A DNA stretch of 64,000 bases, taken from contig KL197725.1 of NCBI GenBank assembly GCA_000697665.1, positions 632,132-696,131 of the forward strand, read 5' to 3'. The stretch comes from Jaapia argillacea MUCL 33604 (taxonomy: Eukaryota > Basidiomycota > Agaricomycetes > Jaapiales > Jaapiaceae). Below the pieces are notes generated by a model that saw nothing but the letters and a program-made list of their open reading frames with translations, did no database searches and was not told where the DNA came from. Positions 871 to 53,025 of this stretch are shown piece after piece. A program made the position numbers and the translations under genes. Within the stretch, counting starts at the first letter, position 1; each line of letters starts with the position of its first letter.

Positions 871-3093
871 ATGGGCTCATACGTCGTTGACCCTTCCCTC
901 TACGACCCTGCCAAACTGGAGGAGGTATCGCAGCGGTGTGGGGTTCAAGTACCGATGATGCAGGCAATGAGAGACCTGTTCTCCGACAATGCTTCGTCAA
1001 TCCCAAGGCGCTCATCGTTTGCTAATCCCCTCGAGTAAGTTCTTGCTTGGGATGGGTACTATCGCGTGGTTGTTGCTGACCTCACTGCTCTCCAGACGAG
1101 CGACATCCGTTCAACTTGCGAGTGGCACAACTCCAACCAACTATCAACCATCAGTAGCATTGAGAGCCAATGTACCACGAACGACAAGTGTACCCGACGT
1201 GTACTGGAATCAGTATGAACACGTTGGCGTTCGAGTTTATTGCTTGTCTAACTTGTAGTGTCAGGAGTTCCCCTTCCCTACCATCGACGTCCGCGGCTCG
1301 GCCGTACTTCTCTCCGGTGCCTCAGTTTCCCCAAGAACCTCTGCCAGCGCCCAGTGAATGCACGCCATCCATGCTCCCAACCGGGCTACGAGATGCCACT
1401 GCTCGCCTTGATTCATTCTTCGCAGATTTGGATGAGCCCAAAGAGAGTCCTCAGTAAGCTTGACTTTCTTTATTCGGTATAGCTTCTAACGTTTTGTTCT
1501 AGGGGAACTAGAAACTCTCTGCCACCGTTGCAACGTCAACCGAGTCGAAACTTCAACCTCTCTTCTTCAACTGCAGGTCCATCCAACGTTCCGTATTATC
1601 CCGCACAAGATTCGCAACAGCCCCCTGTCGGAAGTCTGGATTATGGACCCTATTGGTTCGAAAAACCCCAACACACTCATAACATGTCGTGAGTTGATTT
1701 CCTGAGCCCCTTCCGACTTTTTTGTTGATCAATTTGTTGCTCGTACCAAAGATACGTTCCAGAAAACCGGATGTCAAGGATTGAGATACCTGACGATTGG
1801 AGATTTCAAGTTGGCCTCCAGCGACAAACCAGACGAGGAGAGAATAATGAGACGCTTGGGCTTCAGTAAGTTGTCAACCTAGCATATTGGGAGACTGAAC
1901 CTTACCACTTCGCCCATTCAGCACTTCCATGAATTCACCAACTATGAACGGTGGCGAGAGAGCCGTCCAGCATCAGACGTCTATGGCCTATCCAGTGCCC
2001 ATCCCTGAGCAGAACGTCGCTCAGGCATCCTCCTTACCTGTGTACGTCGTTATTGTAAAGTCAATCTCAAGGGTCTCATCTCACCCTGTGATCACAGTGC
2101 CCCATCCTCTCGCCCCGTTCGATCCAACAAGAGGGTCAAGAAAGCGAAAGCTGTTCCGTGAGGATGATTTGATCTATTCGTGTGTATCGGATATTCACTA
2201 CTATTCATCTAGGGTACCTTCAGCTCCAGCTGGCGAACCCATTGCCACATCGTCTCGTATCGAGGCTACACCTAGCGGATCTGCAGTCCCGACACCAGGC
2301 ACCTCAGTGAGCACCCCTTCGCAAGCGACCCCTGGCGCCGACTCCCCGTATGATAACCCCCACGTCACAGTTCTTATCCCGTTCGATTGTTTTACCCATG
2401 TCCCAGCCACGAGCTCTAGCGGCTTGCCCATGTTCCCCTCTCCCTTCCCCGCACCGAGACCGTCGTCAGCCGACCCCGAGGACTCAAAGCCCATCATCTT
2501 GCCCCAGCCGAAGAGGCAGAAGAGACCTCGTTCGACGGATGAGCTTGGTCTATTCTTGGCTTTTGTGGACAAGGTCACAGATGCATACGAAAAACTCAGT
2601 GGGCTCGATCATGTGGCATGTCCTTGGCCCGTCGCTCACAGTCTATCCTGCGGGAAGTCGATCGGGGCCACCAGGAACTCTGTTTGGAAACATCTGAAGG
2701 AGGATCACGGGCTGACGGACAGTGTTCAACCTACGTGCCAACTTCCTAATGGCGACGGAACAGGACAGTGCGCAGCGACCATGACTGGGGATTCGTTGGG
2801 CCGTCACATTCTTTCTGTCCATCTCAAGCACGGCAGAAACTGTCCGATCTGTATGACAGACTTCTCGAGAGATGATTCTGTCACGCGACACTGCCAGACC
2901 AAACGTTGTTATGAGTCCAACGTTAACGCTACCAGGGTCGCCATGTTGCGTTATATGCAGTGGGAGGAGGAGAGGACGGGCAGTATCCCGAGGTCGTGTG
3001 CGTATCCCTAGGTTTCCGTTATGCTGGGTTTCGTGCTCACAAGTTATCTTCTTTGTAGACGTTGAAGGATTGTTCGATCCAGAGTTGAAGTGA
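871..3093 (+). CDS. Zinc-finger family protein A (disordered N-terminus, C-terminal C2H2/C2HC fingers)
   Basis: Probable nuclear nucleic-acid-binding protein; function unknown. Start ATG at 871 (MGSYVVDPSLYD). Exons read as 871-1034, 1096-1212, 1259-1453, 1503-1688, 1752-1865, 1922 onward, with further introns near 2042-2097 and 2159-2213, and a last exon ending at TGA 3093. The first five introns all have phase 2. The N-terminal 400 or so residues are Ser/Pro/Gln-rich. A basic stretch (KRQKRPR) precedes fingers at about 2610-2920: a C-x-H-x4-H unit, a second Cys/His unit with an HILSVH end, and CPICMTDFSRDD followed by RH and C. The last exon encodes DVEGLFDPELK, matching the D-x-x-x-L-(Y/F) tail of genes B, F and G, and the DDWRFQ block resembles their GWRK block. 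A is therefore a diverged paralogue. Splice sites in the middle are less certain than the ends. Confidence 0.72.
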
Positions 3094-7223: not shown

Positions 7224-8095
7224 AATGTGCGTCCCTTCTTTCATCGTTGATCGTCTTTCGATACTGAGTTGTCTATTTCAGACGCGGTGGTGAATAATAA
7301 CTTATATGCCATTGTTACGACCGCTCGGCTGACGCCCATGGATTTTCTCGACATCGACACGGAATCTGTATTTTTCTTTTGCTGCCCCTCCCAACTACCC
7401 TGTCACGATATTCTCGTCCCTCGTTTATATATACACACTACTTGATGGGCGCTCTTTGACTTCTCCAGCGTTTCTTGCCTTGTCTTGTCTAGGGATTCCT
7501 TCTTACTACATCATCATCATCCGAACGGACTTTAGCGTAGCCTCTGTCTCATTTCCTTCCTGCCACAATGCAATGCCTTGCAGCGATTCGTTTGACACGA
7601 AACATGATATTGCTTGCGAAGTGAGATTTTCAACGTCAACGAATATTGACCATTCAGGTTCACCTCCGGATTCGTGCCGTCGTGGTAGTCATTCAGCGCT
7701 CAGCGTTCAGCGGCTCAGCTTCATATCCAGCTGATTTTCTGTCTCTGGTGGAATGGACCCTTGGGAATCGATGTCTGCCTGCCTGCCGGCATTTCCTACA
7801 CCCGCCCATGTTGACCACAAGACCCATCCTGTGCCGCCATATGGAACGTGCATTGTCTCAGCTACGTGTCTGTCTCAAGCCTTTCTCAGAAGCTTGGTTA
7901 TTCCTATCTTACCATCTAGTCGACCTCGACCACGCTGGACAAACTGCTTCTTGATCTTGGCTATCTTTGAACCAAGATCATAACTGTGTCTTATAAAGAC
8001 TCCAACAAACCTTCGTTCTTGTCTATTTTAACCTTGGGCGCTCTTTCCCATACCTGATTTCATCCCTGGCTTTCTGAGGAATCCTTGAGTGCAAT
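7224..8095. other. Intergenic: 3' end of glyoxal oxidase gene and promoter of deaminase gene
   Basis: No supported gene. A TATATATACAC word lies near 7427-7437. The rest is pyrimidine-rich DNA with short unsupported frames. Confidence 0.4.
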
Positions 8096-10830: not shown

Positions 10831-13800
10831 ATTCGATAACATTGTAAAGGGAGGTCAGATACATTGGTAACTACTATGTGGCACTACTATATCGAATGGA
10901 ATGATAAAGAAAACACAGGTATACTTACTACACTTGATGATGGCTAACGCTACACAAACCTGGCGAGATGACGACCAAAAAGTTGGGGAGAGGCATAGAA
11001 ATGGTGATGCATGAGACGGAAACCAAAGAAATCATATAGGGGAATAAACGAGTCGCAGGAAGGACGCGATAACGCACCCTATAATGGTGAAAAAATCTAT
11101 CCAATGACCAAGAGAAACGGATTAAAATGAGATAACTGAGATGGAAAGAGATGAGACTGGGAATGAGACCGAGATTCCTAACACGTCGAGAATGCAAAAC
11201 GAACAAGAACAAGAAAGATAAGACTCCTGATATACGCATCATGAGTAGAGATTGACAATGTCTACGAGAGAGAGAGATGAGGGACGCGGTCAGGTTACGA
11301 GGCAGCTAGAGAAACGAACCTTGTCGCAAAGTAGGTCGCCGCATCATCTCCTTCAGCTTATCCACCTTGGGTTGTTTTCCTGGGATGGAAAGACACCCTT
11401 GCTCCCTGAGATGCCTCCTCAAACTATCTATCCTGGACGTACGCTTAAAACAAATCGGACACGCCATCGTAGCCGAGTTATAACGTGTTTTAGTCTTTAG
11501 ATGCTGACAAAGGCTCATCGCCTGTAGCATTGGTGGCTCAACGTTGGGATCGGGATCCACTGGACACAGGGCATTGTATAAGGGCGTCCTTCTCGAGACC
11601 ATGCTCCTTAATGTGTTTCCTCCAATCCTTCTTGGATAGGTCTGTCTTGAAGACCACGCCGCATCCTGGGAGTGGACAGGGCATATCGCGGATAGATTGT
11701 GCTTTCCATGCCTCTACAAGTTTCAGGATGAATTCGATAAAATTGGTCAAGTCTTTCTCCGCGTCGGTGTCGTCGCGGCGACGTTTCTTGCCCTTCGGCT
11801 GGGCAAGAGTGACGGGAGCGAGGAGTGCGTTGGCCGGGGTGGCGGCTCGAGCTTCATCCGATCCGCCAGGTTGTGGAACCAACTCAGGACTGGACCATTG
11901 TGAAACGGATAACCAGGTGGAGGTCCCGGAGGAGATGGGTACCGGGGAAGATCCTTAGGGATCTGTGGATTGAAGGGATGGGGATTGGAGGGAGTCGCAG
12001 ACGTCGAAGCGACAGGACGCTGAGGCTCAGGATGATGTTGTGCTTGAAGTGGTCTACGAGGGTTGACAACGTTGGCGTGACCACCCCGAATGTTCACGGA
12101 AGAAGTGGGGGGAAGAGCGTTCGGATACATGGGACGAGGCATGGCCATTTGGGGGTCCGACATGCCTTGGTGCGGTGGCATCGGGGAGTATCCAAAGAGG
12201 CTGTGAGAATCGGGTAGCAATCAGCAAGACGCAAATAGCCAACAAACGATGACGGAACGTACCTAAGGTGGTCGTTATGCATCGAAGAGCCATAACCCAA
12301 TCCTGGCGGGTAAGGAACGGTAGCCGCATGATGATGCGTATTGTTCGGCGTACGATTCAACACTTTCGAGTCCGTCAACGGCCTTACAAAGGTGTGTACC
12401 ATCAGAAGTGTACTCGAAGGGGAAATGGGTGACAACATACCCCACATGACGCTCACCACCGTATTCTCGAGCCCGAGAAACTTGGCGATGCTTGGCGGCA
12501 AATTTGCGCCATCCCTCAGTGGCCGCAAAGGGTTGGGCCTGATAGTAGTCAATTGGGGGATACCTAAACATGATTTAGGGTAAGGAAAAGAGAACAATAT
12601 CACCAGGAAGAGGACTTACTCGGCATTGGCTTTAGGAGATGGGTTGTTCGATCCTTGAACAAATCCATTTCCATCACCTGTCGGGGAGGGGTTGGAAGGT
12701 CTTTGAGAGATTCCATGTGAGATGTGGACACCAGAGGTGTCAACCTCAGCAGACCCAGGGCGTCGATCTTCACGGATCGGCATACCGAAGTTGACGCGAG
12801 GTTGTGTCGCCGGGTGCCTGAACGGAACAGTCAATTGTCAGTCGGGGTGTTGAGTAAATATGAAGCGCACAGACCTTTCAAAGGGAACTCCTTGATATGT
12901 AACCGAAGTCGGAAAATAAGAGTCCCCATCGCCGTTGGCATCCTCCGGGCTCAGAGCGGACTCCGGAGTGCTGTAACTGGACACTACACCCTGGTACATC
13001 GCAATATCAGGCAGAGGGGAGCTTCAGGGTCTTCGCTCGTGGGAGGGCGCTAACCAGTGGTCTGCTTTTGAATTTTGGGCATCGGAGGCATGAGTAACCA
13101 CAGCTGCGGCACCAACATCGCCAGAGTTCGTCGGGGACGATGGATTGGTGACAGGCTGAAAGGGGGATTGGTGGCTGCCTTTGGTAGCCTGGGCGGCATC
13201 GAAAGCGTTTAAGACAGCCAGCAGGTCAGCGGCCGCATCGCCTGAATGCGAAGGGGTACAACCTGCCGCGTGTGGATGATCAATACCACAAGACCTGTAA
13301 TGAATATGCCATGGTGAGACAGTCGGAGGAGTGAAAAAGGGTTGAATCTCGTCTTACTCAAGGAACCCTAACCCCAACGTCCCAGCACCCTCGCCTGCGA
13401 GGGCCTTTTCTCCACCCTCCACGGTGGCATGTGTTGAATCTACTTTTGAAAAGCCTACACAGTACTCAGAAGATGCGGATACGGTATCTTCGTCGACGGG
13501 AGATCGAACGGTAGCAGCCTGGCCGGCGAGGGTATCACCTCCCGGGTACGCGATCGCGGGAGTGGAATCGAACGTCGATAGGCTTGTTTGAGGCTCGTGA
13601 GGTGCGGCAATAGTGTCTTCATCGACCGGACATGCAATGCCACCTTGTTCCATACTCGAGGAAGTCCTGGAGCGACAAGTGTGAGTGAGAGGAAGAAAAC
13701 GGTGGGGGATAAGGTATTCGATTTACCCTGCAGCCACGCCAGCTGAAAGTCTCCTCAAGGCCGACGTGTTGGAGCCCAAGTTATCTTCAGAGGACGCCAA

Positions 13801-15008
13801 GGATGCTCCTTGGTCGTCTAGACCGAAAAGCGAATCCAAGGTGGGCAACAAGAAGGAATCCATGGTGAAATCTACGGTGAAATCCATGGTAGGGCCTAGA
13901 ATATACCCAGCAGATGCACAGGTAGGTGAAAGGTGAGAAGAAGTAAAAGGTGTAGAAGGTAAAAACAGAGAAAGAAATGGAGACTCGTGATGGCAGGTGA
14001 AGGAAAGAGAGCGGGCGAACGGGCGCGTCTTAAGGGAGCACGTGAAACGCGAACTGTGGCCATCAATCGCGGTTCAAACGAAAACGTGGTTGAGCCCACC
14101 GATGGTCAATGCAGAGCGCGGTGTGGGCGCAGCCTATTAACTTTCCCAAACGCGATCGTCAGTGCGGAATCGACTCTGGCTGCTGTAGTATTCGCAACAC
14201 TGCTGAGTCAGATGTGTATCAGGTGATTTGCGCATTTCTGGTCAACCGCAATGTCGAATGTAATCAGAGTTCCCATTTGTTTGTTTCTCTCCGGTGTTCC
14301 ATTGTATGTCTGGTCAAGGTCAGCCGTATAGGGTTGGCTGTACTTGTCGCTGGGGAGAAACTTGGTCTTAGCAATTGTACGAGAGATATGGGACAAGAAC
14401 TGTTTTAAACGCTGCGAAAAAACGCAGGGTACGACCAAGGGAAGGCATCATATGGGGTGCAAACAGAGCTCATGATTCATGGTCCACCGGGAGAACATTC
14501 GTCTCTCAAGGGGGAAAAAATCAAAAGGAAGGAGACCGAAGTTGCACAATCGTCCTCGCCCATAAGCAAAACGCATCGAGGAATTGATGACACTCCAGCG
14601 AACCCCCCGGGAAAAGTCACAAAGTGCAAGAGAAGGATATTCACTTACCTCAGACCTTATTCACGGGATTCAAAAGAGTCCAAGCGTGCAGTAAATTCTC
14701 GCAGCGCAATAGTAGCGGAAAGTAAGGTCATCCAGGGTTGACGGTGCGACGGGTGGGGATCTATGGGGATGAAACGACTCCAACTCCAACTCCGGCTTCA
14801 AAGACGCTCATGCTGGAATACCATTCTGACATGACGATGGGCGTTTGGACACGACATTGGGATGCCAATCTGCCTGAGCAAACCAATGGTTCTGATCGAG
14901 CTCGTCAATGGGCGAGGGAGTTATGGGTGATTTGCAAAGAATGGGATCATCCACGTTCAATACGGATACCGGGCCGGTACGCCGGTCACCACCTTCACGA
15001 CAACTTCG
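10812..15008 (-). repeat. Inverted segmental duplication, left arm
   Basis: This block is similar, in reverse orientation, to 48920-53443. Matching landmarks on the complementary strand: the CCAATGTATCnnACCTC and GTTATCGAATCATG words at 10812-10860 versus 53405-53442; all exons and introns of gene B versus gene G; the upstream DNA reading NRGSNENVVEPTDGQCRARC at 13987-14225 versus 49609-49900; and the far edge with GGGCCGGT(A/a)CGCCGGTCACC at about 14971-14995 versus 48934-48960. Similarity stops at about 15008 just after CACGACAACTT. Arms differ by several hundred bases because of insertions in the right arm. Edges are accurate to a few tens of bases. Confidence 0.9.
11239..13887 (-). CDS. 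Zinc-finger family protein B (inverted paralogue of G; probably frameshifted)
   Basis: Start ATG at 13887 (MDFTVDFTMDS); terminal microexon ends at TGA 11239-11241 and codes DIVNLYS, identical to G. The exon order matches gene G: acidic/Leu-rich N-terminus; MEQGGIACPVDED exon; one copy of the DAAADLLAVLNAFDAAQ helix (G has two); RRPGSAEVDTSGVH exon; KGWRKFAAKHRQVSRAREY exon; LGYGSSMHNDHL exon; then a long exon with one copy of the Pro-rich PVASTSATPSNPHPFNP unit, KGKKRRRDD, and fingers CPLPGC...HIKEH and CPIC...SRIDSLRRH...C. At about 11561-11572 the second-finger region differs from G by a net loss of two bases: the upstream frame (LIQCPV) then runs into a stop, and the rest of the finger region continues in another frame. 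Unless an unusual roughly 40-nt intron is used, B makes a truncated protein. It is a probable recent pseudogene. Confidence 0.7.
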
Positions 15009-15384
15009 CCATGACACAGGAAACGCGAGAACAACTACCCAACATCGAGGCATAGACATGTGCATATGTAGTGAGACAAGCATATGTATTAAGCTGAGAC
15101 ATGCGTACAGTACTGAGGGCGCCAGGGAGGATTAATAGGGTATAAATATGTAGAGTAAATGAACTAGCACTGCGCTCACGCGCTCACGGGTCGCAGAGCA
15201 GATAACCAAGGGAGGATCAATAGGGATTAATGGGGAATAAATATGTAGAGTAAATGAACTAACCCCGTAACCCATTGGGTCGCAGGGCAGATAACCGAGG
15301 GAGTAGATTAGAGGGCATGTTGCATATTACGAACGACCGAGACAAGGAATGGCCCGTTGACCAGACACGCGGAGTAAAAAGTCA
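13888..15384. other. Upstream region of gene B plus unique DNA to gene C
   Basis: Up to about 15008 this is duplicated in the right arm, so open frames shared between arms (such as 13987-14226) reflect DNA similarity and not proven coding. From 15009 to 15384 the DNA is unique apart from a local direct repeat. No gene recognised. Confidence 0.45.
15126..15304 (+). repeat. Imperfect tandem direct repeat, two copies of about 90 bp
   Basis: Two successive units share GGGAGGATNAATAGGG, then (A)ATAAATATGTAGAGTAAATG AACTA (split here), then GGGTCGCAG(A/G)GCAGATAACC followed by (A/G)AGGGAG. The first copy spans about 15126-15216 and the second about 15217-15304. The repeat lies directly outside the left duplication arm and just downstream of gene C. 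It has no coding potential that I can see. Confidence 0.8.
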
Positions 15385-17717: not shown

Positions 17718-18815
<1,098 letters not shown>

Positions 18816-22868: not shown

Positions 22869-23422
22869 TCTGAAGACTGGTCAAGTGGGCAAGAAAGCGG
22901 ACGACTAGATTGCTTTCACAATCCTGCTCTATTTAAAGAGTTGCAATCATCCTCCGACTCTTCCACGTTCGTTATCCGTACCTTGACCACAAGACCATGT
23001 CGTCGTAAATGGACTAAATCGCCCACCCGTGATTAACACTTTTTCGACTTTATCGCTTCCGCTTTGACGACTTGACACTATCGATGATCAGTGCCAACCC
23101 ATTGTGGGATGTACTCAGCATCGCGAGAACACTGTTGTCTGGCCCGTCCAGAGCCTCGTGCTGTTAGGACAAGGACGTCTTTAAAAATAGCCCTCGGGAT
23201 ATTTTTGCACAGCCCTTAGCGTATTTGGGTCGTACATTACTCGTACCTTTCGTCGGAACCCTCTTGCGAAACGGTCGTCGTGACCCAGCCGAGCTAGAAT
23301 GTGCCTGCCGACATAACGTGCGACCTCATGATTTCAACATCATCGTACATACGAATAAATCTCTTACACCGCCTTCGCGACTTGGTCATTCGCCGAGTCG
23401 CGCATTTGACAACTCCTCACCC
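22869..23422. other. Promoter region of glycine-rich gene and 3' flank of dioxygenase gene
   Basis: No supported gene. Confidence 0.4.
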
Positions 23423-37530: not shown

Positions 37531-39060
37531 TCACTTGGAACAAGTCTCCTCATGCCTCCTCGCCGCATCCCCCCTCGACAACACCTGTCCACACTTCCCA
37601 CAATTCCTCACCAACAACTTACAATGCACATTCTGCACATGTCTCCTCAAACTCCCATACGCCAAATCCTTTCCACAATCTCCCCACCCGCACCTGATAA
37701 CCGTCTTGGTATGGAGATCCTGGATATCCGGTTTGTGGGCTTTCATCAAGTGGTCGGCGATGGAAAATTGGGTGAGAGTGATGTGGGAAGTGCAAGAGTT
37801 GTATTGACATGCGATTGAGTGGGGTGGAGGTGTCGATGAAGAGGAGGTGCTCGGTGAGCTGGGGAACGTGGGCGAGGTTGGCGAACGGCGGACTTGGGGA
37901 AGGGTGCGAGCACTAACACCCTCTGGGACAAAGACAACAGATGGGGACCAAACTTGTTGGCGCTTCGCTTGAGTCCCTTCAGTTGCCCTATTATCTTCAT
38001 CTCCACTCGCCATAGATTCGAAGGACCTCTTGTTGCTCAACGAACGCGCATGTGAGCTGGATCCCCCAGGCTGAGATCTTCCATCGACGTTCGGGGAGGA
38101 ACCACTGGAAACTTGGCTCTGCAAGTACTGAGCCACTGGACCGGGCAGCGCCGCCCGTTGAGGCCGATCCGGAGAACACGGAGCGTTCCTACCAGGATTC
38201 GACTGAGTTTCGAACTCCTCATCCGTGTCCGAAGACAGCGACGACGAGGAGGTTGCAGGGGAGGTCGATCCTCGGCTTGATAGCGGCGATGGAACAAAAT
38301 GGACAGGACTGTTGGTTCGTGTAGGATCAGGTGATTCATCGGATGGGGGTGACCAGTCATGGTGTCCATCGTACAGAGCCATCGCGAGACTGGAGGTGTA
38401 TGTAGAACTCGGTTGAGCAACGGGCTTCTCGAGAATTTTAGCAGATGGTCGACACAGAGTAAGCACGGCGGGGTTGATTGTCTCAGGCAGGTTCCTTGTT
38501 CGAGTTCAGTGGCATGCGTACGCCTCCAGATGGACAGACATACCTCAGGAATGAATTTCCATACACAACCGCTCGCGCAGGCGAAGGGTAACCAGCGAAG
38601 TGGATGTCACTGGGACAACGCCGTTAGATCATATCTAGTAGATTCCAAAGTGGAGACATACAGTAAGAGTGGCTCTTCTGGTGCAGCCTGGCTAGGGTAA
38701 CCTAGTCGTTCGGGCGGCGTATTGCGTGGCGGCGATTGGTGCCTCTCAGAAACGACGAGTGGCCTACATTGTTCGAAAGGAACAAAGGGGGTGAGTGGCG
38801 TGCGACTCCAAGGTCGTTGAACGTGGTGGACCTACCCTTTTAGGGGCCTGTCGAACAATGACGGCCGAGAGTTCAAGGCATCGCCAGGTGTAGGAACAGT
38901 GAGATTAATGTTCTTGACCTGTCGTAGCGACTCGACGCTACTGGGGGAAGAGGGGGCAGGTTTTTGGAATGTCTGTGGGGGAGACGTTATGTTTGGTATG
39001 ATCCCGGTGTTTCTGATAAATAGAGAATAATTGAGAGACAGTCGAAGCGTGTAATAGGAG
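37531..39060 (-). CDS. Zinc-finger family protein E
   Basis: The main exon (37531 to about 38490) is preceded by at least three small exons, read as RNTGIIPNITSPPQTFQKPA..RPLKG, PLVVSERHQSPPRNTPPERL, then LDIHFAGYPSPARAVVYGNS. All joins have phase 2, as in the other family members. The N-terminus is Ser/Pro-rich, with KRSFESMASGDED and a basic AKRQQ. Fingers at the C-terminus: CQYNSCTSHI...HLMKAH, CGWGDCGKDLAYGSLRRHVQNVH and CGKCGQVLSRGDAARRHEETC (C2HC), ending SK-stop at 37531. The third finger has the SRxDxxxRH pattern seen in A, B, F and G. There is no terminal microexon. The start codon is not resolved and lies upstream of about 39055. Confidence 0.75.
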
Positions 39061-41377
39061 CCCAAGCGAGCAGAGCCACCTACATTGACGATCGATGAGA
39101 CACGTGAGGGCGTCTGGAGGTCAAAGCGAAAGTTAAAGCCTGCTCTATTGACTCAAAAAGTGATAACAAACCTTGGAACTATCGCAAATACTGTACCAGA
39201 CGGCGCTGAGGTGGAGAAAGAGCCAAAGCTATGATCGAAGGATCAGAAAGTACTCCAAGAATTATTGGGGGCAGAAAATCCGCTCACTCTGCTCCTCTGC
39301 CTTTGGCTGGGCGAGCCCTTGTAATTCGAGGGATATCTTCCATTTTATTCTGCAGGATCTGGTGACTGGTGGTTCGGTGTGTGGGTGCGAGGATTAACAA
39401 TCGCAGAGAGTAGCACGGTGAGTGGGAGTGCAGTGAGGATAAGTCAGGATACCACAGAGAGGTTTGTGTTATACTAGGACCTATTGCCACAAACTGTGCA
39501 AAACATGCACCCATTGGAGCAACAACTTGGTATTCAATCACCGCGTCAAAGCAAATTCGAACCGAAGGGGGAAATCCTTGTCAAAAGAATCCACATTTGC
39601 TCGGGCCAGAAGATCGTACAAAGGAACTCGGCATTTCCCTTATGTCTAGGAAAAAACATGTTCACGGATCTATAGGGATCGAAACTGGAATTAGATACAG
39701 GGTAAGGACCGCCAAAGCACAGATCGCTCACCCTGGATTTTTGTTTTTGCCTATCAGCCATCTACCGCGCTTTGCCAACAACACGTTTTTGAAAGTGCCG
39801 GACCCAAGAAGATAGCCTCTAAGGGGGAGAAAACTCGGGTCAGCTTCACAGGAAACACCCACAGCTTGATTTCAAAGCACACACACCTTGCTGTGTTGTT
39901 GGCTTTAACCACACGTTCCGGTGGCGAGAGGGCTTGATCAATCCCGATCCCGGGCGTCAAAGATAAATCGGGGAACGTGTATTGGGGTGCTCTGTCGGGG
40001 TAGAGGCTTCCTAGTATCCCAAACGATGTGATCCAGCAACCCATCCGCTCGGAAACACTCGCTCGAGTGGAAATATTCTGGTATATTTCCGCGCTTCTGT
40101 TTGTATCGCTGAGGATATATATTTAGGTACCCACTGCTCACTCGCCGACAAGTTCTTAACAGGACATACCTCCTAGAGAGTTCATCCCCCTCGGCGCGCC
40201 ACTGGGTGTATCCTCCAGGGAGGGGGACGAAGGATCCTGATCTTGAACACATACCGAAAAACGATAGTGACGCCCTTCCGACCGTTCCTTGCGCAAGTGG
40301 TGAGTGAACAGTTGCGTTGCTTGGAGAGCTTTAAGTCCAACAGGACAAGCTTCGAGGGTACCGACTCTAAATAAGCCAAGAAACCTTCGGTATGTCACGT
40401 ACCGGGAGTTAGAATGGTGGATACTATCGTAGTGGACCTGTGAATGTTCCACCTAGCAACTGAAAGGATGGGTCGTTTCGGAAGGCGACGAAAGTTTGCC
40501 TCCAGAAATCCGACCAACATTATGGTCTGCGATAATGTAGAGAAGAGCTGACGCCTGTAGCAGACCCAGGATAGCCTTCACTCAGGAGCCCTACGCTGCC
40601 AGTCCGGCGAAACTGTCAATTGTTGGGCATCGTCCCCATAAATCCGCGTGTTCTCCTTGAACCCCAATCCTCCGTCGTTTGCCAAGGCCATCCCAACCCT
40701 TTGGTGCGACAAGGTTGTCGAATTCCGGGAGGTAGAAAATGGTCTCTCCATAGACGCAATCCACGCCCTACTTGAAGTGAGTGCCGTTGAACTGCTCCTG
40801 GCGTAATGAGTCGATGAATTCAAGAGCCTCTGATTCGACTTCCGTAGTGGCCGAAATTGGGTGAAACTGCAAAGCCTGCCAGTTTTCCACTCGGAGAAAA
40901 GGACTAGATCAAGATGAATCGATGAAGGTACGAGCAGAACCAGGTGTACTATGTTGGTGCAGTACAAGGAGGTTTCATGTCGTTACGTAACTGCTTGAAC
41001 ACCCATAGACGCCCATACTGATACTCGCCAATATCACCAAAGTTCCTCCAGTGGGCAAGGCTGGCAGAGAGCTCAAGCTCGACCTCAGGGCCCTAACAAT
41101 CCACAATTCACCTGTGGGATTATATGGCAGTGGAAGCCCACTTCTAGTAACTGGTCGTGCCAATGACAGTTCCACCTCACACCACAGCTGCTGGACTTGT
41201 TTCCTGTTCGATGTTACTTACAACCGTCACGGCTCAGGCTACTATCGTTGAAGGTGGCGGTTATGTTCATCAAGATTCATCTATGGCCATTCCTACATCA
41301 ACGAACAAAGTTCGTGGCGCATCGAGAGTCATTATATCTTTTCCTCATTCGAAACTCATCACCCAACACCCAGCAAT
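39061..41377. other. Long stretch without a resolved gene, possible decayed coding relics
   Basis: Beyond the unresolved first exon of gene E I find no intact gene. Two minus-strand stretches look faintly coding: about 39940-40450 (for example RYVTYRRFLGLFRVGTLEAC) and about 40580-40970 (one frame reads ALEFIDSLRQEQFNGTHF, then a stop, then ETIFYLPEFDNLVAPKGWDG). Frame changes and stops suggest old relics. No family could be assigned, and chance cannot be excluded. Confidence 0.3.
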
Positions 41378-42515
41378 CTAGCTGAACCAAGTCGTCCACT
41401 CATCCGACGTCCTCTTGATTGCGGCAGTGATCTCCCTCGCCACAATCCTATCTGATTGCTCTGAGGGGTGGAGCTCATCGTACCTTGATACCAATCCCTT
41501 CAACATGTTATTCGATGTAAGGTCGACGAAACACTCACCAGAGGAAGCTGTCCCTGTCAGTACCATTTGCAATGGTGCACACGCCTGGATCTCCGGTACT
41601 CTCATTGAGGTTAAATACGCAGGAGTGTACACATCCAGTCACGTTCAACGGAGCGGTACCGTTCAAGTAGTTGGCGGGGTTGTTGTACATATCAGTGAAC
41701 AACCCGTAGGAGTCGAAGAGCCCTGTATGAAGAAGTTAGTCCTCCACGAACAGTGCCGAAAACGGAAGTACTGACCGACATGGGCACCAGGTAAGGCGGG
41801 AGCAAGACCACGAAGCAAGAGCCTGGAGATCGCGTTACCAGCATTAGTGACCTCGGTCATCTGGACATTCCACGCAGTGGTGTTCCTCTCGGCTGTCCAG
41901 TAGCGATTGGGGTAGGAGTTGGCGGAGTAGAGGATTGTGTTTTGGAGGGGGATCATCTAGATTATCGGAAGCGGATTAATTAGGTTTGTCGGTCATGAAA
42001 TAGCTTGATCGAGTGCTCACATTTTGGAAGAGGAAGTTCCTGGCACCAACCGCATAGAGTGCGCTGACCCAGTTGACGGCGCATTCCACGGTATCCACGA
42101 CTGTCACGCCGGGATCTGACCCAGTTTCGAGGGCATTGGCTCCGACATCATTCGTACCAATCCATAACGTGTAGATCGTCGTATTCGGGTCAAGCTTCAA
42201 GGACCCGTTGTTGATCTCGCTAATGTACGTCGGAATCTGGGACTCGAATACCGGAGGGAAAGGTCGGTATGTCAAGTTGTTCGAGCAGGTCGCACCAGAT
42301 TTCGCGAAAGGATAGAGGTTGAAGGGACCGTATCCAGCCGCATACGTGGGCCAGGCGTATCCTCCATCAGCGATGTTGACAACATCGGTGTATGAGTCCC
42401 CGAATGTTACGAGGTTTTGGATCTGCCCTGGCTGAACACCAGTTGACCAAGCCAAGATTGATGGGACAAGGGTCAGGCAGACGGAGAGGAGTCGGAGAGC
42501 GTTGGTGTGGACCAT
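41378..42515 (-). CDS. Secreted GDSL (SGNH) esterase/lipase, copy 1
   Basis: ATG at 42515 with a signal peptide (MVHTNALRLLSVCLTLVPS). Four exons as in copy 2; all introns canonical and the frame intact to TAG 41378-41380, about 321 residues. Catalytic blocks: VTFGDSYTD (nucleophile Ser), WIGTNDVG (Asn block) and YDELHPSEQSD (Asp and His). Many N-glycosylation sequons (NNGS, NNLT, NTT, NGT) fit secretion. Probable carbohydrate acetyl-esterase or lipase of CAZy CE16-like type, substrate not decidable. Copy 2 lies head-to-head at 43690-44827 and the similarity includes the promoter. Confidence 0.92.
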
Positions 42516-42705
42516 GGCTGGATTCGGGGTGCCTCTTCGGTGGGGGGGACAAACATGTTTTGTCTCCTTCAAATAGGACGGGGGTTGAAACGGGAAGTGT
42601 TCAAAGAAGCACACGTGGATTAAAAGGGGAAATAATGCCCAATTTTACATTGGTCACGAGCAATAGTATGTGTGTGCCGATGGCCAGGGAAGAGTAGACG
42701 AACTT
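41378..42705 (-). repeat. Inverted duplication, arm 1 (GDSL pair)
   Basis: Similar in reverse orientation to about 43500-44827, covering the entire gene plus some 190 bp of promoter; shared promoter words include CGTGACCAATGTAAAATTGG-like sequence (42645-42660 region versus 43550-43570) and TTCCCTGGCCATCGGC-like sequence. Confidence 0.88.
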
Positions 42706-43499: not shown

Positions 43500-44827
43500 A
43501 GCTCATTCATTCTTCCATGGCCATCGGCAAAGGCACATCGCAGCACTTGTGACCAATGTAAAATTGGTCATTGGTTCTCCTCGTAATCCACGCTTGCTTC
43601 TGAGAGCTCATCCCCACCCCCTGCCCCAGCCTATTTGAACAGGATGAAATCTGAAGTTATCCTCATCGGAGTGCATTTCCTCTCCAATCATGGTCCAAAC
43701 TAACGCTCTACGACTCCTCTCTGCCTGCCTGACCCTCGTCCCGTCAGTCTTGGCTTGGTCCACAGGCGTTCAGCCAGGCCAGATCCAAAACCTCGTCACC
43801 TTCGGAGATTCATACACCGATGCCGGCGCTCCCGCTGATGGAGGAGTTGCATGGCCCACTTATGCAGCTGGATACGGTCCTTTCAACCTCTATCCATTCG
43901 CTAAATCCGGCGCAGTCTGCTCGAACTATTTGACACCTCGACAATTCCCCCCGGTCTTCGAGTACCAGCTTCCCGCCTATTTTAACGAGACCAGTAACGG
44001 AACGATAAAGCTCGACCCGAACACTACGATCTACACATTGTGGATCGGTACGAACGATGTCGGCGTGGGTGCACTCTTAACGGGTTCTGACCCCGGTGTA
44101 ACCCTCGTGGATACAATTGGGTGTGCTGTCAACTGGGTGAACGCACTCTATGCATCTGGAGCCAGGAATTTCCTATTCCAAAACGTGAGCAGCACAGTTT
44201 TTCATGCAATTGCGAGACTAACATTTGGATTGTACCAGATGCTCCCCCTTCAAAACACTATCCTTTACTCTGCCAACTCGTATCCCAGTCGCTACTGGAC
44301 CGCAGAGAGGAACACCACGGAGTGGAACGTCATGATGACGGAACTCACCAACTCCGGCAACCAAATCTCCAGGCTCTTGCTTAGCAACCTGGCCCCTGCC
44401 TTACCTGGCGCCCATGTCGGTGAGCAGCAAACGTCTTGTATCTCAACCTTCCGCCAGTGAAGCTAACTTCGTGAAAGGTCTCTTTGACTCTTATGGGTTG
44501 TTCACTGATATGTACAACTACCCTGCCAACTACTTGAACGGTACTGCTCCCCTGAACGTGACTGGATGTGTGCATTCATGCGTCCTAAACGTCAACGAGA
44601 GCACCGGCGATCCAGGTGTTTGCACCATCGCCAATGGCACAGACAGGGACAGCTTCCTCTGGTGAGTACTACTACGAATATCCCATTCGATACCATCAGC
44701 GGCTCATGAACTACCCTCAAGGTACGATGAGCTCCATCCTTCAGAGCAATCAGATAGGATTGTGGCGAGGGAGATCACTGCCGCCATCAAGAGGACATCG
44801 GAAGAGTGGACTACGTGGTTCAGTTAG
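43500..44827 (+). repeat. Inverted duplication, arm 2 (GDSL pair)
   Basis: Counterpart of 41378-42705. Exon-intron structure is the same in both arms; introns differ more than exons. Confidence 0.88.
43690..44827 (+). CDS. Secreted GDSL (SGNH) esterase/lipase, copy 2
   Basis: Exons 43690-44184, 44239-44419, 44478-44661 and 44722-44827 give 321 residues. Signal peptide MVQTNALRLLSACLTLVPSV. Catalytic Ser in VTFGDSYTDAG, Asn in WIGTNDVGVG, Asp/His in WYDELHPSEQSD; the last block is created across the third intron. Cysteines in GCVHSCVLN may form a disulphide. Substitutions relative to copy 1 are scattered (for example DAGAPADGGVAWP versus DVVNIADGGYAWP) with no stop or frameshift in either, so both appear functional. 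The divergent arrangement of copies leaves about 1.2 kb between start codons. Confidence 0.93.
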
Positions 44828-46074
44828 ATGACTTGGAGGGCGATGGGTGTGGTAACGAAGAGAGGATGATGATAAAATCGACACGAGTTCCTTCACGAAT
44901 ATCTGTCAACGTACTTAGTGACGAAAGGGAACGATTTGTGACGACTGTTGATTCGAAAGTTGGGAGCCTTGCAAGGGTCCACGGACCGGTCTCGCGACGG
45001 ACCACCTTTTATTGCCCCCGCCCTACTTCGTTCCCTTTCGTTCCCGAAAACATACTCGTTGGTTGTTGAATCATCGATTCGTTTGATGCTCTTGGGACCT
45101 CGATGATCAACCATACTTGCTTCATTTCTCGAAAACATCTAGCAGACGCACTGATAAATTGAACGAGAACACGATTTGGTCCCAATGCAAGTAAACCACA
45201 CTATAATGCCCTCCTCCCGGTGTTGCGAAAGGCCTATCTGTGCAATATGGGGCCTGTGATTCGGAGCAAGATCTTGGCCACTACTCGTCCGTTGTATGAT
45301 GTATCTCAGTGTTACAGAGACTCCCGCTTCGGCGGTTCCCATCATCGGCTGATGTGGTCTGGTGAGCTCAGTTATTGTCTTTGGTCGCAGTCACTTTCGT
45401 TGTTTGCCTACTCGGGGTTTCTTGTCTTAGATGTTGTATTTCGCGTTTTTATTACTGGAGTACAATCCCTATTAAGATGGCGCTTTGAAATGTGCTTTTT
45501 GTTCACTTTTATCTGAAACTTTACTTGTAATTTCTCAAGTTTCCCCCTCGCCGATCGATTCCATAACTTTGTTGTCGTGCATGTATACCAGTCTGCTGAC
45601 AATTTCCGTATCTCTAGCAATATATCCATGGGTTTCTAGCCATCTTTTGTGAATGTACTCCCAGCCTCGGGATAAAGCGAAGATATCAGAGCGAGCGACT
45701 GAGGTGATGGCGTACCTTGAATCGCGCCTTGCAAACCTGCACCCAGATATCTGGCTGATAATCACCCACGTCGTCTATCCCAAGGTACGGTCCCGGCGAG
45801 CCATAGTTCAGCCGATCGCAGCAACCTGAGCAATGGATCTCCACGCGCGACGCGCCGTTTTGGGGCCACGGTCGTCCTTGGTGGCTTGAATCACGCCCCC
45901 CGCTTTGAGTCGCGTTGTGGGTGCCTCACGTGCGCTCGCATTCATAACGCGCTCCGTTCGTTCACTTGCCCTTTCCTTCACCATCCACTACCACTGCACT
46001 TTCCTCTTCCTCTTTCTACTTTTACTCCTTCTTCCCCCATCGCTCACCTGCTCCACCACTTTGGTATTCTGGCA
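44828..46074. other. Intergenic; upstream region of gene F
   Basis: No supported gene. The last 200 bases before 46075 are pyrimidine-rich; ACGCG/GCGCG words occur at 45840-45960. Confidence 0.35.
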
Positions 46075-48493
46075 ATGTCAAACACGGAGCTCCATCCACT
46101 CTACGACGATGAACTAGAGTACATCGACGTCGATTTTGACGATGGCTCTGAGGAAATTCCTATTCCTCGGTTCCCTTCTCTCGATACAACCGCCTACCCC
46201 AGTCAATCTACTCTTGCGCAGACACCCATTGAGGTTCTCGGCCAGTACGTGGATCCCCTTTACGCCGTGATTCCCCCACCTCACGGTTCATCTCCTAGGC
46301 CTTCCTCGTGGATGCAACAGGGTGGCATCGAGTTTCCCTGCTATGAGGGGTCCAATCCGGCCGCTTTCAGCACTCCTTCAGGTTGTTCGGTTCAGGATGA
46401 TGTTCATGCCACCGTAAACAATGCCACTGTAGTTGTCGCTGGCGAGGCTACTAATGGGTACAGTCTTGGGGATGACATTCATGGGTACGATTCCTTCCCT
46501 CGAGTTGTTGTCATGGTTCGGTCGGCTCACGATCATTTGCATTCCAGGCGCCTTGGTTCCTCTAGCTATGCTTGTAGGCACGATACTCGATCCTCACCGG
46601 TACCAAGTGGCTTTTCGACTCAGCTGGGAGATGCATCGGCTGGTTTACCCTCCGATGATTTTTCCAGTCTAACGCCGGAACAGCTACTCGCACTCGCCGA
46701 TGTCGTACTGAGGGTGTATATACCGGGAGAGGAAGCCTCGGCCTCGCATCCCGCAGAGCGTTGTGGAATCGATCCATCGATGATTTCGAACACCACAGCT
46801 TCTCAGTTTGAAACTAGCGGTCCTCGGCCCCAATCAATGGAGGCTACTCCATACGCTGACCCAGCGTTCGACGTGAATACGCCGGAATCTATCCCGAGTC
46901 CACAAGAGATGGGATTATATTTCCTGCAGTCGAAGTCTGGTAACATTGGAGGGTTCGATGACGGTGATTTCCAGTATGTGTAACTCATGATCTTCATTGA
47001 CGTTCTCTCTGATTGTTGGGAATATCTGTAGGGCGTTCGAGGAAGGCCCTCGTAATGATCTCGGTATGCCCCGTGGAGACGATCGAAGGCCTGGTTCTAC
47101 AGACTCCCAAGACTCAGCACTGTCCGCCCAGAACGACGTTTCTCCCTTTGCTCCTGAGACTGCCAGCGCTACACCCCACGGGATGAACCAGTGAGTTCTA
47201 GCATCCTGATTCATTCGCCACCTTTCTCACAGCCCGTCTTCACGGCCTTACTATGAACTTCTTCTTTATCAAAGCCAAACCCAACCTATCGGCATGTCTG
47301 AATTCCAGAAGCATACGGCTAGGACTCGGGAAGTTTCGAGGGCCCACACTCAACTTGAGCTCCAATGCCATCCGGAGTACGCCCGTTTGCAACTCTCCGT
47401 CCCTCAAGGACCAGTTCTGACTATCCTCTTCTTTTAAGGCCGCTCATGGATTCCCGTATGATGAACTACGCTCAGCGTGACGTTCATCACCCTAGCGGTG
47501 CCATTAACCTGCAAAGGGCTCAAAGTCAAGACGGAGCTCGAAGCCTTGGGATGAGGTACGCCCTTCTCTTCTATCTGCCGGTTTGACTCTCACCTATTAT
47601 GCTCATAGACCGTACACTTTGCCTGTAAAGCAACCACAACCCCGATACTCCATGCCTGCCCCGATATTGGGATCTGGGCATCTCCACGAAACGGTCCCTT
47701 ACCATGCGAATCGTTTTCCATTCCCCTCTCACCCACGGCCGGAACAAGTCCCATCGAGCTCCACCCCTCTTGGTCACCCACCACACCATGGTGTCACCAT
47801 GAGTTATCCCTCATATCCTGCCCCTCCATATCCACCACCCGCTCCTCTGCCTCAATTTCAGCATCCTCATGCCGCGTCTCCCGCTGATCATCCCGCTGAC
47901 GTCGCACCCGCTGTAGCCGCTGCCCCAACTATAACGGCTTCCAGAGGCGTGAAACGTCGCCGGGAAGAGCCTGATGCCGATCCTTTCGAAACCTTCGTGA
48001 ATTTCACCGGAGAGATTGTTCGGTTACACAACGAACAAACCCATCCCTCCAGCATATCTTGTCTGGTAACAGGGTGCCAGACACAGTTCACGCCGAAGGC
48101 TTCGAAGGGTGAATGGACGAATCACCTCGTTAACATGCACGGTTACTCCGCTACCGATCCCGTTTGCTGTCACGTCTGCAAGAAGCCAAAAGCGATGAAG
48201 TTGGAGAGCCTGGGCCGACACTATACAACCAAACATCTGAGTCTTGCCAAGTCACAATGTCCCATTTGCTTGACCTCGGGATACTCGAGGGTTGACTCCA
48301 TGAAGAGGCACATCCGACAAGAGCGCTGTGATGAGCAACAGAGACACGCAGGTAGAGTAGAGAAGTTGAGGAGGCTCCAGGGGCAGGTCGGGGCCCTTTC
48401 CTTTGAAGGTTCGTTCTCAGACCACCCACTCATCACTGTCTTCCACTGACTGACACCCTCTCAGATATCCGTGATCTCTACCCACTGCCTTGA
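46075..48493 (+). CDS. Zinc-finger family protein F
   Basis: ATG at 46075 (MSNTELHPLYDDELEYIDVD). A long first exon (to about 46966) encodes an acidic, Ser/Pro-rich region with LTPEQLLALADVVLRV. Following exons mirror gene G: GPRNDLGMPRGDDRRPGS, TQPIGMSEFQKHTARTREVS, RPLMDSRMMNYAQRDVHHPS, then a long exon with Pro-rich SYPSYPAPPYPPPAPLPQ, a basic GVKRRREEPDADPFETFVNF and three fingers: CLVTGCQTQF...HLVNMH, CHVCKKPKAM...HYTTKH and CPICLTSGYSRVDSMKRHIRQERC. A final intron with GTTCGT donor (phase 1) precedes the microexon coding DIRDLYPLP, TGA at 48491-48493. Other introns have phase 2. No frame damage seen. Role unknown. Confidence 0.82.
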
Positions 48494-50067: not shown

Positions 50068-53025
50068 ATGGATTCCACCGTGGATTTCATCATGGATTCC
50101 CTCTTGTTGCCCAGCCTCGATTCGCTTTTCCCTGAAGTGAGCTATCTGGACGACGAAGGAGGAGCATCCTTAGCGCCCTCTGAAGATACCTTGGGCTCCA
50201 CCGCATCAGCCTCGGGGAGAGTTTCAGCTGGCATGGCTGCAGGGTAAACGAACACCTCCCCCCACCGTTTTCCTCAACTCACTCACACTTATCACTCCAG
50301 AACTTCCTCGAGTATGGAACAAGGTGGCATTGCATGTCCGGTCGATGAAGACACTGTTGCAGCCCCTCATGAGCCTCAAACAATCCTAACGACGTTCGAT
50401 TCCACACCCGCGATCGCGTACCGTGGAGGTGACACCCTCGCTGGCGAGGCTGCCACTGCTCGATCTCTCGTCAACGAAGATGTCGTTTACGTATCTTCTG
50501 AGTACTGTGCAGGCCTTTCAGAAGTAGATTCAACAGATGCCACCGTGGAGGTTAGAGAAACGGCCCTCGCAGGCGAGGGGACTGGGGCGTTGGGGTTAGG
50601 GTTCCCTCAGTACGACAATATTCAATCCTGTGTCAATCCTCCAGGTACCTAATCATGACTTATCCATTACAGGTCTCATGGTATTGATCAACCACACGCG
50701 GCAGGTTGTACCCCTTCGCATTCGGGCGATGCAGCCGCCGAGCTGCTGGCTGTCTTAGACGCTTTCTATGCGGCCCAGGCTACCAAAGTCAGCCACCAAT
50801 CCCCTTCCGACGATACAATTGCCTCGACTGGTGTCGTCGATGCAGCCGCCGACCTGCTGGCTTTGTTAGACGCGATAGATGCGGCCCAGCCTACCAAAGG
50901 CAACCACCAATCCCCTTTTCACCCTGACACCAATCCATCGTCATCGACGAACTCTGGCGATGTTGATGCCACAGCTGTGGTTACTCATGCCTCCGAACGC
51001 CAAAACTCGAAGGCAGACTACGGGTTGGCGCCCTCCCACGAGCAAAGACCCCAAAGCTCCCCTCTGCCTGATGTTGCGATGTATCAGGGTGTAGTGTCCA
51101 GTTACAACACTCCGGAGTCCACTCTGAGTCCGGAGGAAGCCAGTGGCGCTGTGGACTCTTATTTCCCGATTCCATATCAAGGAGCCCCCTTTGATAGGTC
51201 TGTCCGTTTCGTATTTAATCGACGTTCCGGCTGATGATTGGCTGTTCCGTTCAGGCACCCGGCGACACAACCTCGCAACAACTTAGGTATGCCGATCCAT
51301 GAAGATCGACGCCCTGGATCTGCCGAGGTTGACACCTCTGGTGTACACGTCCAACGTGGAATCTCTCAAGGACCTTCCAACCCCGTCCCTGTAGGGTATG
51401 GAAATGGATTTGTTCAAGGACCCAACAACCCATCTCCTGCAGCCAATGCCGAGTAAGTCCCCTTCCTGATGATATTATTCTCTTTTCCTTACTCCGCATC
51501 GTGTTCAGGTATTCCCCTATTGACTACTCTCAAACCCAACCCTTTGCGGCCACCAAGGGATGGCGCAAATATGCAGCCAAGCATCGCCAAGAGTCTCGGG
51601 CTCGAGAATACGGAACTGAGAACCATATGGGGTATGTTACTGCCCATTTCACCTTTTTGAGCACCTTTCTGATGGTATTTATCCTTGCAAGGCCGTTGAC
51701 CGACTCGCAAGTCTTAAACCATACGCCGCACAGTAGCCATCATCATGCGGCTCCCATTCCTTACCCGCCAGGATTGGGTTATGGCTCTTCGATGCATAAC
51801 GATCACCTTAGGTACTTTCCCTCATCGTTTGCTGGCTATCTGCGTCTTGCTAATTGCTGCCCGATCCTCGCAGCCTCCTTGGATATCCTGCAATGCCACC
51901 GCACCAAGGCATGTCGAACCCCCCAATGGCCATGCCTCGTCCCATGTATCCGAAAGCTATTCCCCCCAGTTCCTCCATGAACATTCGGGGCGGTCGCACT
52001 AGCGTTGCAAACCCTCGTAGACCACTTCCGACACCACATAATCCTGAGCCCCAGCATCCTGTCGCTTCGACGTCTGCGACTCCCTCCCATCCCTACCCCT
52101 TCAATCCACAGATCCCCAGGGACCTTCCCCGGTATCCACCTCCTCCGGGACCTCCGCCTGGTTACCCGTTTCACAATGGTCAGGGAGGTCACACCAATGT
52201 TGTCAACCCTCGCGGACTACTTCAGGCACCACATAATCCTGAGCCTCAGCATCCTGTCGCTTCGACGTCTGCGACTCCCTCATATCCCCACCCCGTCAAT
52301 CCACAGATCCCTAGGGATCTTCCCCGGTACTCACCTCCTCCAGGACCTCCACCTGGTTATCCGTTTCATAATGGTCCAGTCCCTGAGTTGGCTCCACAAC
52401 CTGGTGGATCGAATGAAGGACAAGACGCCGCGCTCCTCGTTCCCGTTACTCTTATCAAGTCGAAGGGTACCAAACGTCGTCACAATGAGACTGACGAGGA
52501 GAAGCAGTTTACGGAATTTATCGAATTCGCCCAAAGCCTCGTAAGGACATGGAAGGCACAATTCGTCCGCGACATGCCCTGCCCGCTCCCAGGATGCAAC
52601 GTGGTACTCACGACAGACTTATCAAAGGAGGATTGGAGGGAACACATCAAGGAGCATGGTCTCGGGCAACATACCCTTATACAATGCCCTCTGTGCTTAC
52701 TGGATCCCGACGTCACGCCACCAATTCTACAGGCAATGAGCCTTGGCGAGCATCTCAAGCTTGAGATGCATTACGACTCGCATCGGGTGAAATGTCCGGT
52801 GTGTCTAAGGACTGAGTCCAGGATTGATAGTTTGAAGAGGCATATGAGGACGCCGGGGTGCCATGCCGATCCAAACAATCAGCACAGAGCGGATAAGCTG
52901 AAGGCGATGATGCGGCGACCCGACGCTCTTATTTTGCGACAAGGTTCGTTTTTTCTTGTTACTTCGTAACGTGTCCGTGTCCCTCATCGCTCTGTCTCGC
53001 AGACATTGTCAACCTCTACTCGTGA
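50068..53025 (+). CDS. Zinc-finger family protein G (intact inverted paralogue of B)
   Basis: Exons 50068-50243, 50301-50609, 50673-51197, 51255-51452, 51509-51631, 51692-51811, 51874-52943, 53003-53025 give 847 residues with no break. The first six introns are phase 2, the last phase 1. Domain order: MDSTVDFIMDSLLLPSLDSL acidic start; VDED/LAGEG-rich exon; two tandem copies of a 37-residue unit with DAAAELLAVLDAFYAAQ helix; RRPGSAEVDTSGVHVQRG; KGWRKYAAKHRQESRAREYG; LGYGSSMHNDHL; two tandem copies of a 65-residue Pro-rich unit (PVASTSATPS...GPPPGYPFHNG); KGTKRRHNETDEEKQ; fingers CPLPGC...HIKEH, CPLCLLDPD...H and CPVCLRTESRIDSLKRHMRTPGC; tail DIVNLYS on a 23-nt exon. Probably a nuclear nucleic-acid-binding protein; function unknown. 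Confidence 0.85.
50728..50949 (+). repeat. In-frame 111-bp tandem duplication in gene G
   Basis: The unit starting at 50728 (GATGCAGCCGCCGAGCTGCT) recurs at 50839 with a few changes. It codes a predicted amphipathic helix (DAAA(E/D)LLA(V/L)LDA). Gene B has a single copy. Confidence 0.88.
51992..52381 (+). repeat. In-frame 195-bp tandem duplication in gene G
   Basis: Unit 1 51992-52186 and unit 2 52187-52381 code two 65-residue Pro-rich copies, both with HNPEPQHPVASTSATPS and RDLPRY. Gene B has one copy, so the duplication arose in the right arm or was lost from the left. Confidence 0.9.

Follow-up and report, generated by a model that had tools for sequence, protein, structure and literature searches.

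A local zinc-finger family with near-uniform phase-2 introns

Analysis of a 64,000-nucleotide (nt) stretch of the Jaapia argillacea MUCL 33604 genome (KL197725.1, here contig 17, positions 632132-696131; hereafter the window) supports the presence of a local, fast-evolving family of putative zinc-finger genes whose predicted introns are almost all in phase 2. On balance we consider it rather probable that these genes encode a small family of regulators, fast-evolving and expanded by local duplication, that are probably nuclear and DNA-binding and whose oddly uniform intron layout was inherited. The gene models, intron phases, clustering and finger relationship described below are all read from genomic sequence. 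A first-pass annotation of the window had claimed such a family, and both the phase counts and the searches of the cluster bear it out.

The family as described here includes eight intact genes: A, E20, E38, F, and G in the window, H0 on the same contig, and C52 and C87 on contigs 52 and 87. A broken gene, B, also lies in the window. The names A, B, F, and G are those of the first-pass annotation, and E20 and E38 presumably correspond to its D and E; all six finger genes were located at the positions it gave, five of them with complete open reading frames (ORFs).

Intron phase

Each of the eight hand-set models is a complete ORF from ATG to a single stop codon, encoding 423-847 amino acids (aa). 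Together they contain 38 introns. All 35 non-terminal introns are in phase 2 (7 in A, 2 in E20, 6 in E38, 4 in F, 6 in G, 2 in H0, and 4 each in C52 and C87), and the remaining three, which are the terminal introns of A, F, and G, are in phase 1. Gene B, being broken, was excluded from the phase counts. The models come from a small splice-site dynamic programme that has no phase term, and gene boundaries and a few splice sites were then set by hand; low intron costs produced many false introns, and the costs were raised for the models used.

An automatic pass without hand curation covered 114 kb, that is, the window and its 50-kb flanks. Of the 24 introns that it predicted within the limits of H0, A, E20, E38, F, and G, 22 are in phase 2, including 14 of 14 with strong splice scores; both exceptions are phase 0, one lying in E38 and the other in G, as an alternative to its terminal intron. 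The non-family genes of the same pass had 55, 43, and 30 introns in phases 0, 1, and 2, respectively (n = 128; 30, 19, and 11 of the 60 strong ones). The earlier observation of phase 2 at every readable intron is thus upheld for the non-terminal sites of the hand-set models and, against 30 of 128 in the neighbours, for nearly all sites of the automatic ones. Neither the family count nor that of the neighbours includes gene B or a non-member zinc-finger gene at 15.3-17.0 kb, presumably gene C of the first-pass annotation. For H0, E20, E38, F, and G the automatic models overran into neighbouring sequence, and the uncorrected family counts were 7/13/30 for phases 0/1/2 (strong, 0/4/19); a recount by position assigned 2/0/22 to the genes themselves (strong, 0/0/14) and 5/13/8 to sequence beyond them. 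Hand-picked window genes, some of them with crude models, served as a further control and gave 16/17/10.

Among the strong introns of the eight hand-set models, 23 of 24 are in phase 2 and the remaining one is terminal (Fisher test against 11 of 60, 2e-11). These counts are not independent, as related genes share introns: introns 1-4 of F correspond to introns 3-6 of G, and the layouts of C52 and C87 match. A bound that is conservative with respect to kinship uses only the largest single set, the seven non-terminal introns of gene A, and seven of seven at one third each has a probability of about 5 in 10,000. For comparison, the accessible part of a report on a horizontally acquired basidiomycete amylase gene gives phases that do not differ significantly from equal thirds (PMC3584928). 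Judged by the gene models, the uniform phase-2 pattern is real, with a strength that lies between the Fisher and single-set bounds. At the level of such sequence-based models the layout is statistically solid; the kind of protein encoded is ordinary.

The models have several weak points: (i) one E38 intron turns phase 0 at a stricter (higher) intron cost, (ii) AAG takes the place of CAG or TAG as the acceptor in four introns (A intron 4, E38 intron 6, F intron 3, and G intron 5), although the sites in F and G correspond to each other and their flanking exons match, and (iii) introns 6 and 7 of A sit in a stretch that is also open when unspliced. Two candidate introns were dropped: an extra one in A at 2348, whose acceptor runs into a stop codon, and a 78-nt one in exon 3 of B and G, where F retains the matching coding sequence (by eye: RPQS...NTPES).

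Family membership and genomic distribution

The genome searched comprises 43.7 Mb in 95 contigs, and the search scores only the best candidates; the locus counts are lower bounds. The short introns of the family (42-73 nt) and one match to PF11895, the class II peroxidase extension, are in keeping with an agaric-like basidiomycete. Contig 17 has at least seven loci in a span of 57 kb, counting B, and at least two lie elsewhere. Strong whole-genome matches to the finger regions of G, F, and A are confined to the contig 17 cluster. The finger region of G has six matches including itself, the sole one outside the cluster having an expectation value (E) of 0.08; that of F has eight, three of them outside (E = 0.016-0.05); and that of A has six, two of them outside (E = 0.004-0.013).

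The six window genes had been grouped as equal members. Genes A, B, F, and G do form one close group, and E38 is joined to them by profile comparison; the six are nevertheless unequal, E20 being tied only weakly. In a single comparison, the finger alignment of A, F, and G matched that of C87, C52, E38, and H0 at 97.4% (E = 9.4e-12), with all three fingers in order. E20 matched E38 at E = 0.1 and an unrelated-looking locus at E = 0.03, and exon comparison with E38 gave a z score of 6.0. The search with E38 returned C52 (6.2e-12) and C87 (7.1e-11), and the search with C87 returned C52 (4.6e-18), E38 (1.3e-11), a gene on contig 27 (7.3e-6), H0 (3.4e-5), and, weakly, F (0.0085). C87 matches the ordinary finger gene on contig 27 better than H0, so that by this match alone H0 is no closer to C87 than an ordinary C2H2 gene; the membership of H0 also rests on its match to C52 (3.8e-5), a pair of C-x-W fingers, and exon comparison.

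Several other matches were rejected. The contig 27 gene, presumably a canonical CRZ1-type regulator, was not counted as a member. A tblastn match in the right flank (L044) sits in another gene, which we take to encode an acetylglutamate kinase/reductase of the ARG5,6 type. The match of E20 at position 582371 of contig 17 (E = 0.03) is surrounded by other genes and was left out. Weak matches on contigs 8 and 16 differ in finger layout, and their crude models mix intron phases; the one on contig 12 has no finger frame; neither these nor the weak matches on contigs 2, 3, and 25 were counted. Support in a tree built from the finger regions was low (0.19-0.86), and the tree was not used.

Other finger genes were also observed. 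The gene at 15327-16980 on the reverse strand, presumably C of the first-pass annotation, encodes three ordinary C2H2 fingers, reaches the cut-off of Pfam zf-C2H2_4, and was returned by none of the family searches. On contig 21, positions 427777-523305 contain six zf-C2H2 matches in about 95 kb, two of them in loci L004 and L006, and may form a second finger cluster.

Relationship of the fingers to known classes

The array consists of three fingers, of which the last is C2HC-like, and appears related to the tandem-CWCH2 (GLI/ZIC/Zap1) type, clearly so in C52 and C87 and in eroded form in A, F, and G. According to the accessible part of Hatayama and Aruga 2010 (PMC2837044), this class includes GLI/ZIC/GLIS, Zap1/ZafA, PacC, and AEBP2. 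Its strict published pattern occurs in fingers 1-2 of C52 and C87 and in none of 20,000 shuffles of each. A profile built from C87, C52, E38, and H0 matched the published tandem-CWCH2 consensus at 94.5% (E = 7.9e-8) and, among the PDB matches listed, GLI (5.4e-10), ZIC3 (4.3e-5), and ZAP1 (2.2e-4). The structure predicted for the C87 fingers, with a predicted local distance difference test score (pLDDT) of 82 and a predicted template modelling score (pTM) of 0.64, had as its two best Foldseek matches AEBP2 (2.9e-3) and GLI (6.9e-3), both of the tandem-CWCH2 class, and GLI superposed well (template modelling score 0.61, root-mean-square deviation (rmsd) 3.8). The profile of A, F, and G matched PDB entries mostly through finger 3, including Aart (7.7e-8) and EGR1/Zif268 (1.5e-7).

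A number of observations weigh against this relationship. The strict pattern is found in only two of the eight members and in none of the window genes; A, F, G, E20, E38, and H0 all lack it. In the PDB comparison, of which the best 60 of 120 matches were considered, Aart and TFIIIA outscore GLI, and WT1, KLF4, EGR1, and others outscore ZIC3 and ZAP1; with the profile of A, F, and G, GLI reaches only E = 0.14. None of the 189 Foldseek matches of the C87 model has E of 0.001 or less (best, 2.9e-3), and AEBP2 superposes poorly (rmsd 11.0). The finger model of G is itself poor (pLDDT 64) and was kept out of the fold search, and finger 3 of C52 ends in H-x-C, whose spacing may be unsuited to zinc binding. 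Finally, none of A, F, G, E20, E38, C52, C87, and H0 reached a Pfam gathering score, which agrees with the earlier description of the fingers as degenerate. For zf-C2H2 (PF00096, cut-off 25.2) the best scores were 20.2 bits for C87, 19.4 for the broken B, 19.2 for C52, and 13.0 for G, and A, F, E20, E38, and H0 had no match up to E = 1; Zap1_zf1 (PF21816, cut-off 27.2) gave 19.9 bits for C87 and 9.6 for C52, the other genes being absent from the matches listed. The statement that no named family has this layout was therefore half right: the fingers appear related to a published class, and the window genes fail its strict pattern and are not assigned to it.

The tryptophans vary between members. 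H0 has two C-x-W fingers with an over-long loop, A and E38 have a single such finger, and F, G, and E20 lack it. The helix of finger 3 is better kept: arginine at position -1, aspartate at position 2, and arginine at position 6 are retained in seven of the eight intact members, E20 excepted. As to the SRxDS element of the finger signature proposed earlier, finger 3 of A reads SRDDSVTRH, E20 has no SRxDS, and E38 has SRGDA.

Proposed function

With the usual numbering of finger-helix positions, and with arginine reading guanine, the pattern R(-1)/D(2)/R(6) in finger 3, which is also that of Zif268 (helix RSDELTR in its PDB sequence), argues for DNA reading with a GNG core. We propose that the family expanded by local duplication, and that its proteins would combine a long N-terminal arm rich in proline, serine, and threonine, probably disordered and often with a basic patch, with a zinc-finger array at the C-terminus. 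The arms contain 30-37% of these three residues (no comparison set was used), and a simple rule detects basic patches in five of the eight genes, G, E38, and C87 missing it. In C52 and C87, and nearly so in H0, two tryptophans would lock fingers 1 and 2 into one structural unit and this pair would hold the array together; such bracing has been proposed for the tandem-CWCH2 class in the accessible part of its description (PMC2837044). Finger 3, aided by the basic patch, would read a G-rich triplet (5'-GNG), and the disordered arm would recruit partners and may act in activation. In A, F, and G the tryptophans would have been largely lost with the R/D/R residues of finger 3 retained.

Terminal exon

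A terminal phase-1 intron followed by a short tail was reported for A, B, F, and G, and the four genes do have it. The terminal exon carries 23-35 coding bases. Since it holds the stop codon, it must extend into the 3' untranslated region; the tail exon would thus be the short coding start of a longer last exon, and the term microexon that had been applied to it does not fit. The tails read DIVNLYS in G and B, DIRDLYPLP in F, and YVEGLFDPELK in A. The aspartate claimed for the first position is present in three of the four, A starting with tyrosine from a TAC codon split after its T. E38, C52, and C87 end just past the last finger, whereas the tails of E20 and H0 are basic and of a different kind. 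One might guess that the tail is a short binding motif.

Duplication of gene B and origin of the layout

Genes B and G form an inverted duplication that spans coding regions, introns, and flanks and is 78-95% alike block by block. Compared with G, exon 3 of gene B is interrupted by an in-frame TGA, and its finger exon carries a 1-nt deletion near 11889 and a 4-nt insertion near 11562. Exons 1-6 of B contain three indels, all of them multiples of three, and in-frame segments of 195 and 111 nt inside exons are present in G and absent from B. The synonymous divergence (dS) of the pair is 0.229, the nonsynonymous divergence (dN) 0.144, their ratio 0.63, and the intron divergence 0.225. The breaks make a pseudogene the most likely identity of B, provided that no unusual splicing bypasses them. 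The ratio of 0.63 allows weak constraint and counts against the reading of the family as regulators.

The most likely origin of the uniform layout is inheritance from an ancestor with several phase-2 introns. The ancestral gene would already have had these introns in its 5' half, and later loss or gain of introns together with in-frame length changes would have altered the number and length of exons, leaving frames intact. Inheritance fits the shared intron positions of F and G and of C52 and C87, and it leaves the uniformity of the ancestor itself unexplained.

Alternatively, symmetric 2-2 exons may be kept by selection, with exon skipping, duplication, or shuffling generating variable disordered arms. 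Exon number varies from 3 to 9 among members at constant phase, and such layouts are called rare in the accessible part of a study of aphid bicycle genes, which provide a fast-evolving precedent (PMC9168663). Against this, none of 861 pairs of exons of at least 15 aa in the eight genes was a within-gene pair with z above 5, exons 2-5 of F align in order with exons 4-7 of G, and the B/G length differences lie inside exons. These three results lend no support to the earlier proposal that the family is modular by exon duplication or shuffling, and selection on symmetric exons is rather unlikely. A related and quite doubtful proposal is that the layout, 2-2 exons in the 5' half followed by one large finger exon, is far better conserved than the protein sequence and is actively maintained because it lets skipped or resized exons produce in-frame variants of the regulatory arm.

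It is also conceivable, and in our view unlikely, that the cluster is decaying and consists of degenerate, mostly non-functional zinc-finger duplicates under relaxed selection. The broken state of B, the dN/dS of the B-G pair with its dS close to the intron divergence, and the eroded tryptophans and spacing agree with decay; the complete ORFs of the eight members, the frame-preserving indels in exons 1-6 of B, and the finger 3 contact residues retained in seven of eight do not. Gain of the introns as introner-like elements, or at a preferred target that falls in phase 2, would account for short introns of similar length (42-73 nt) and nearly all of one phase, but is very improbable, as the introns are unlike each other (703 pairs, mean local score 6.9 against 6.7 for shuffled sequences; the shuffled maximum was 12, four pairs reach 13, and only the orthologous first intron of C52 and C87, at 18, lies well above it) and no sharp base preference precedes them (G 14, A 11, T 7, C 3 of 35).

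Comparison with known systems

C52 and C87 have, like the tandem-CWCH2 class, two C-x-W fingers placed first and followed by a further finger, and they fit its strict pattern; GLI, ZIC3, ZAP1, and AEBP2 are among the family's matches by profile, in the PDB, and by fold. The family differs in tryptophan loss, a C2HC-like last finger, and the C-terminal position of the fingers. Compared by layout, PacC/Rim101-type regulators likewise have three fingers with the CWCH2 pair first, whereas the family described here has degenerate fingers behind a long proline- and serine-rich arm.

The accessible part of a survey of Basidiomycota C2H2 genes by Duan and Yang 2025 (PMC12295980) describes tandem, proximal, and dispersed duplication, intron-containing genes, and peripheral clusters with a Ka/Ks of 0.73, which is near the 0.63 of B and G. 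That survey chose genes by PF00096 with a domain E of 0.01; A, F, E20, E38, and H0 have no such match, and the weak matches of C87 and C52 might enter it. The word "phase" is absent from its main text. In aphid bicycle genes, as far as the accessible part of their description goes, almost all internal exons are in phase 2, evolution is fast, and the average exon number is about 17 (PMC9168663). The common feature is near-uniform phase 2 in a fast-evolving family (here 35 of 35 hand-set and 22 of 24 automatic introns), whereas the genes studied here have 3-9 exons and encode zinc fingers; the likeness is one of gene structure, and a sequence relation was not looked for. No report of uniform-phase zinc-finger genes in fungi was found among the titles and abstract openings listed from the openly licensed literature, which is not proof that none has been published.

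Kinship that has faded from the sequence may still be legible in gene structure, as for the aphid genes. The present family could be a fungal test case for following degenerate zinc-finger regulators by their intron phase and exon order; five of its eight members have no PF00096 match. If our reading holds, it would also represent a tandem-CWCH2-like array that is losing its tryptophans while retaining one putative DNA-reading finger.

Gene coordinates and neighbouring features

Table 1. Coordinates of family members and of features within them (positions in the window unless a contig is named)
Feature	Position	Strand	Description
Gene A	871-3093	+	9 exons, 589 aa; introns phase 2 (seven), then 1; complete ORF
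Gene A, exons	871-1034, 1096-1212, 1265-1453, 1503-1688, 1752-1865, 1922-2041, 2098-2157, 2213-2997, 3059-3093	+	
Gene A, three-finger region	2619-2909	+	first finger CPW; finger 3 SRDDSVTRH
Gene A, coding part of terminal exon	3059-3093		after phase-1 intron
Gene B	11239-13887	-	broken inverted copy of G
Gene B, coding part of terminal exon	11261-11239		after phase-1 intron
E20 (presumably D)	19607-20986	+	3 exons, 423 aa; introns phase 2, 2; two fingers
E20, finger region	20774-20920	+	
E38 (presumably E)	37531-39343	-	7 exons, 483 aa; introns phase 2 (six), one model-dependent
E38, three-finger region	37540-37809	-	CQY and CGW fingers, then CGKC..SRGDAARRH..C
Gene F	46075-48493	+	6 exons, 715 aa; introns phase 2, 2, 2, 2, 1; tail DIRDLYPLP
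Gene F, three-finger region	48060-48329	+	
Gene F, coding part of terminal exon	48465-48493		after phase-1 intron
Gene G	50068-53025	+	8 exons, 847 aa; introns phase 2 (six), then 1; tail DIVNLYS
Gene G, in-frame tandem repeat	51985-52374	+	195 nt, two copies, last large exon; single in B
Gene G, three-finger region	52580-52861	+	
Gene G, coding part of terminal exon	53003-53025	+	after phase-1 intron
H0	contig 17, 628604-630081		453 aa; 2 kb left of window; 2 non-terminal introns
C52	contig 52		469 aa; 4 non-terminal introns
C87	contig 87		532 aa; 4 non-terminal introns

A second inverted duplication is present in the window, with divergent genes at 41369-42522 (reverse strand) and 43683-44836 (forward strand) that are about 80-91% alike block by block and that we take, from their GDSY motif, to be GDSL-esterase-like. 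At 21519-22880 on the reverse strand lies a gene for a glycine- and tyrosine-rich repeat protein with internal repeats of 86-147 nt.

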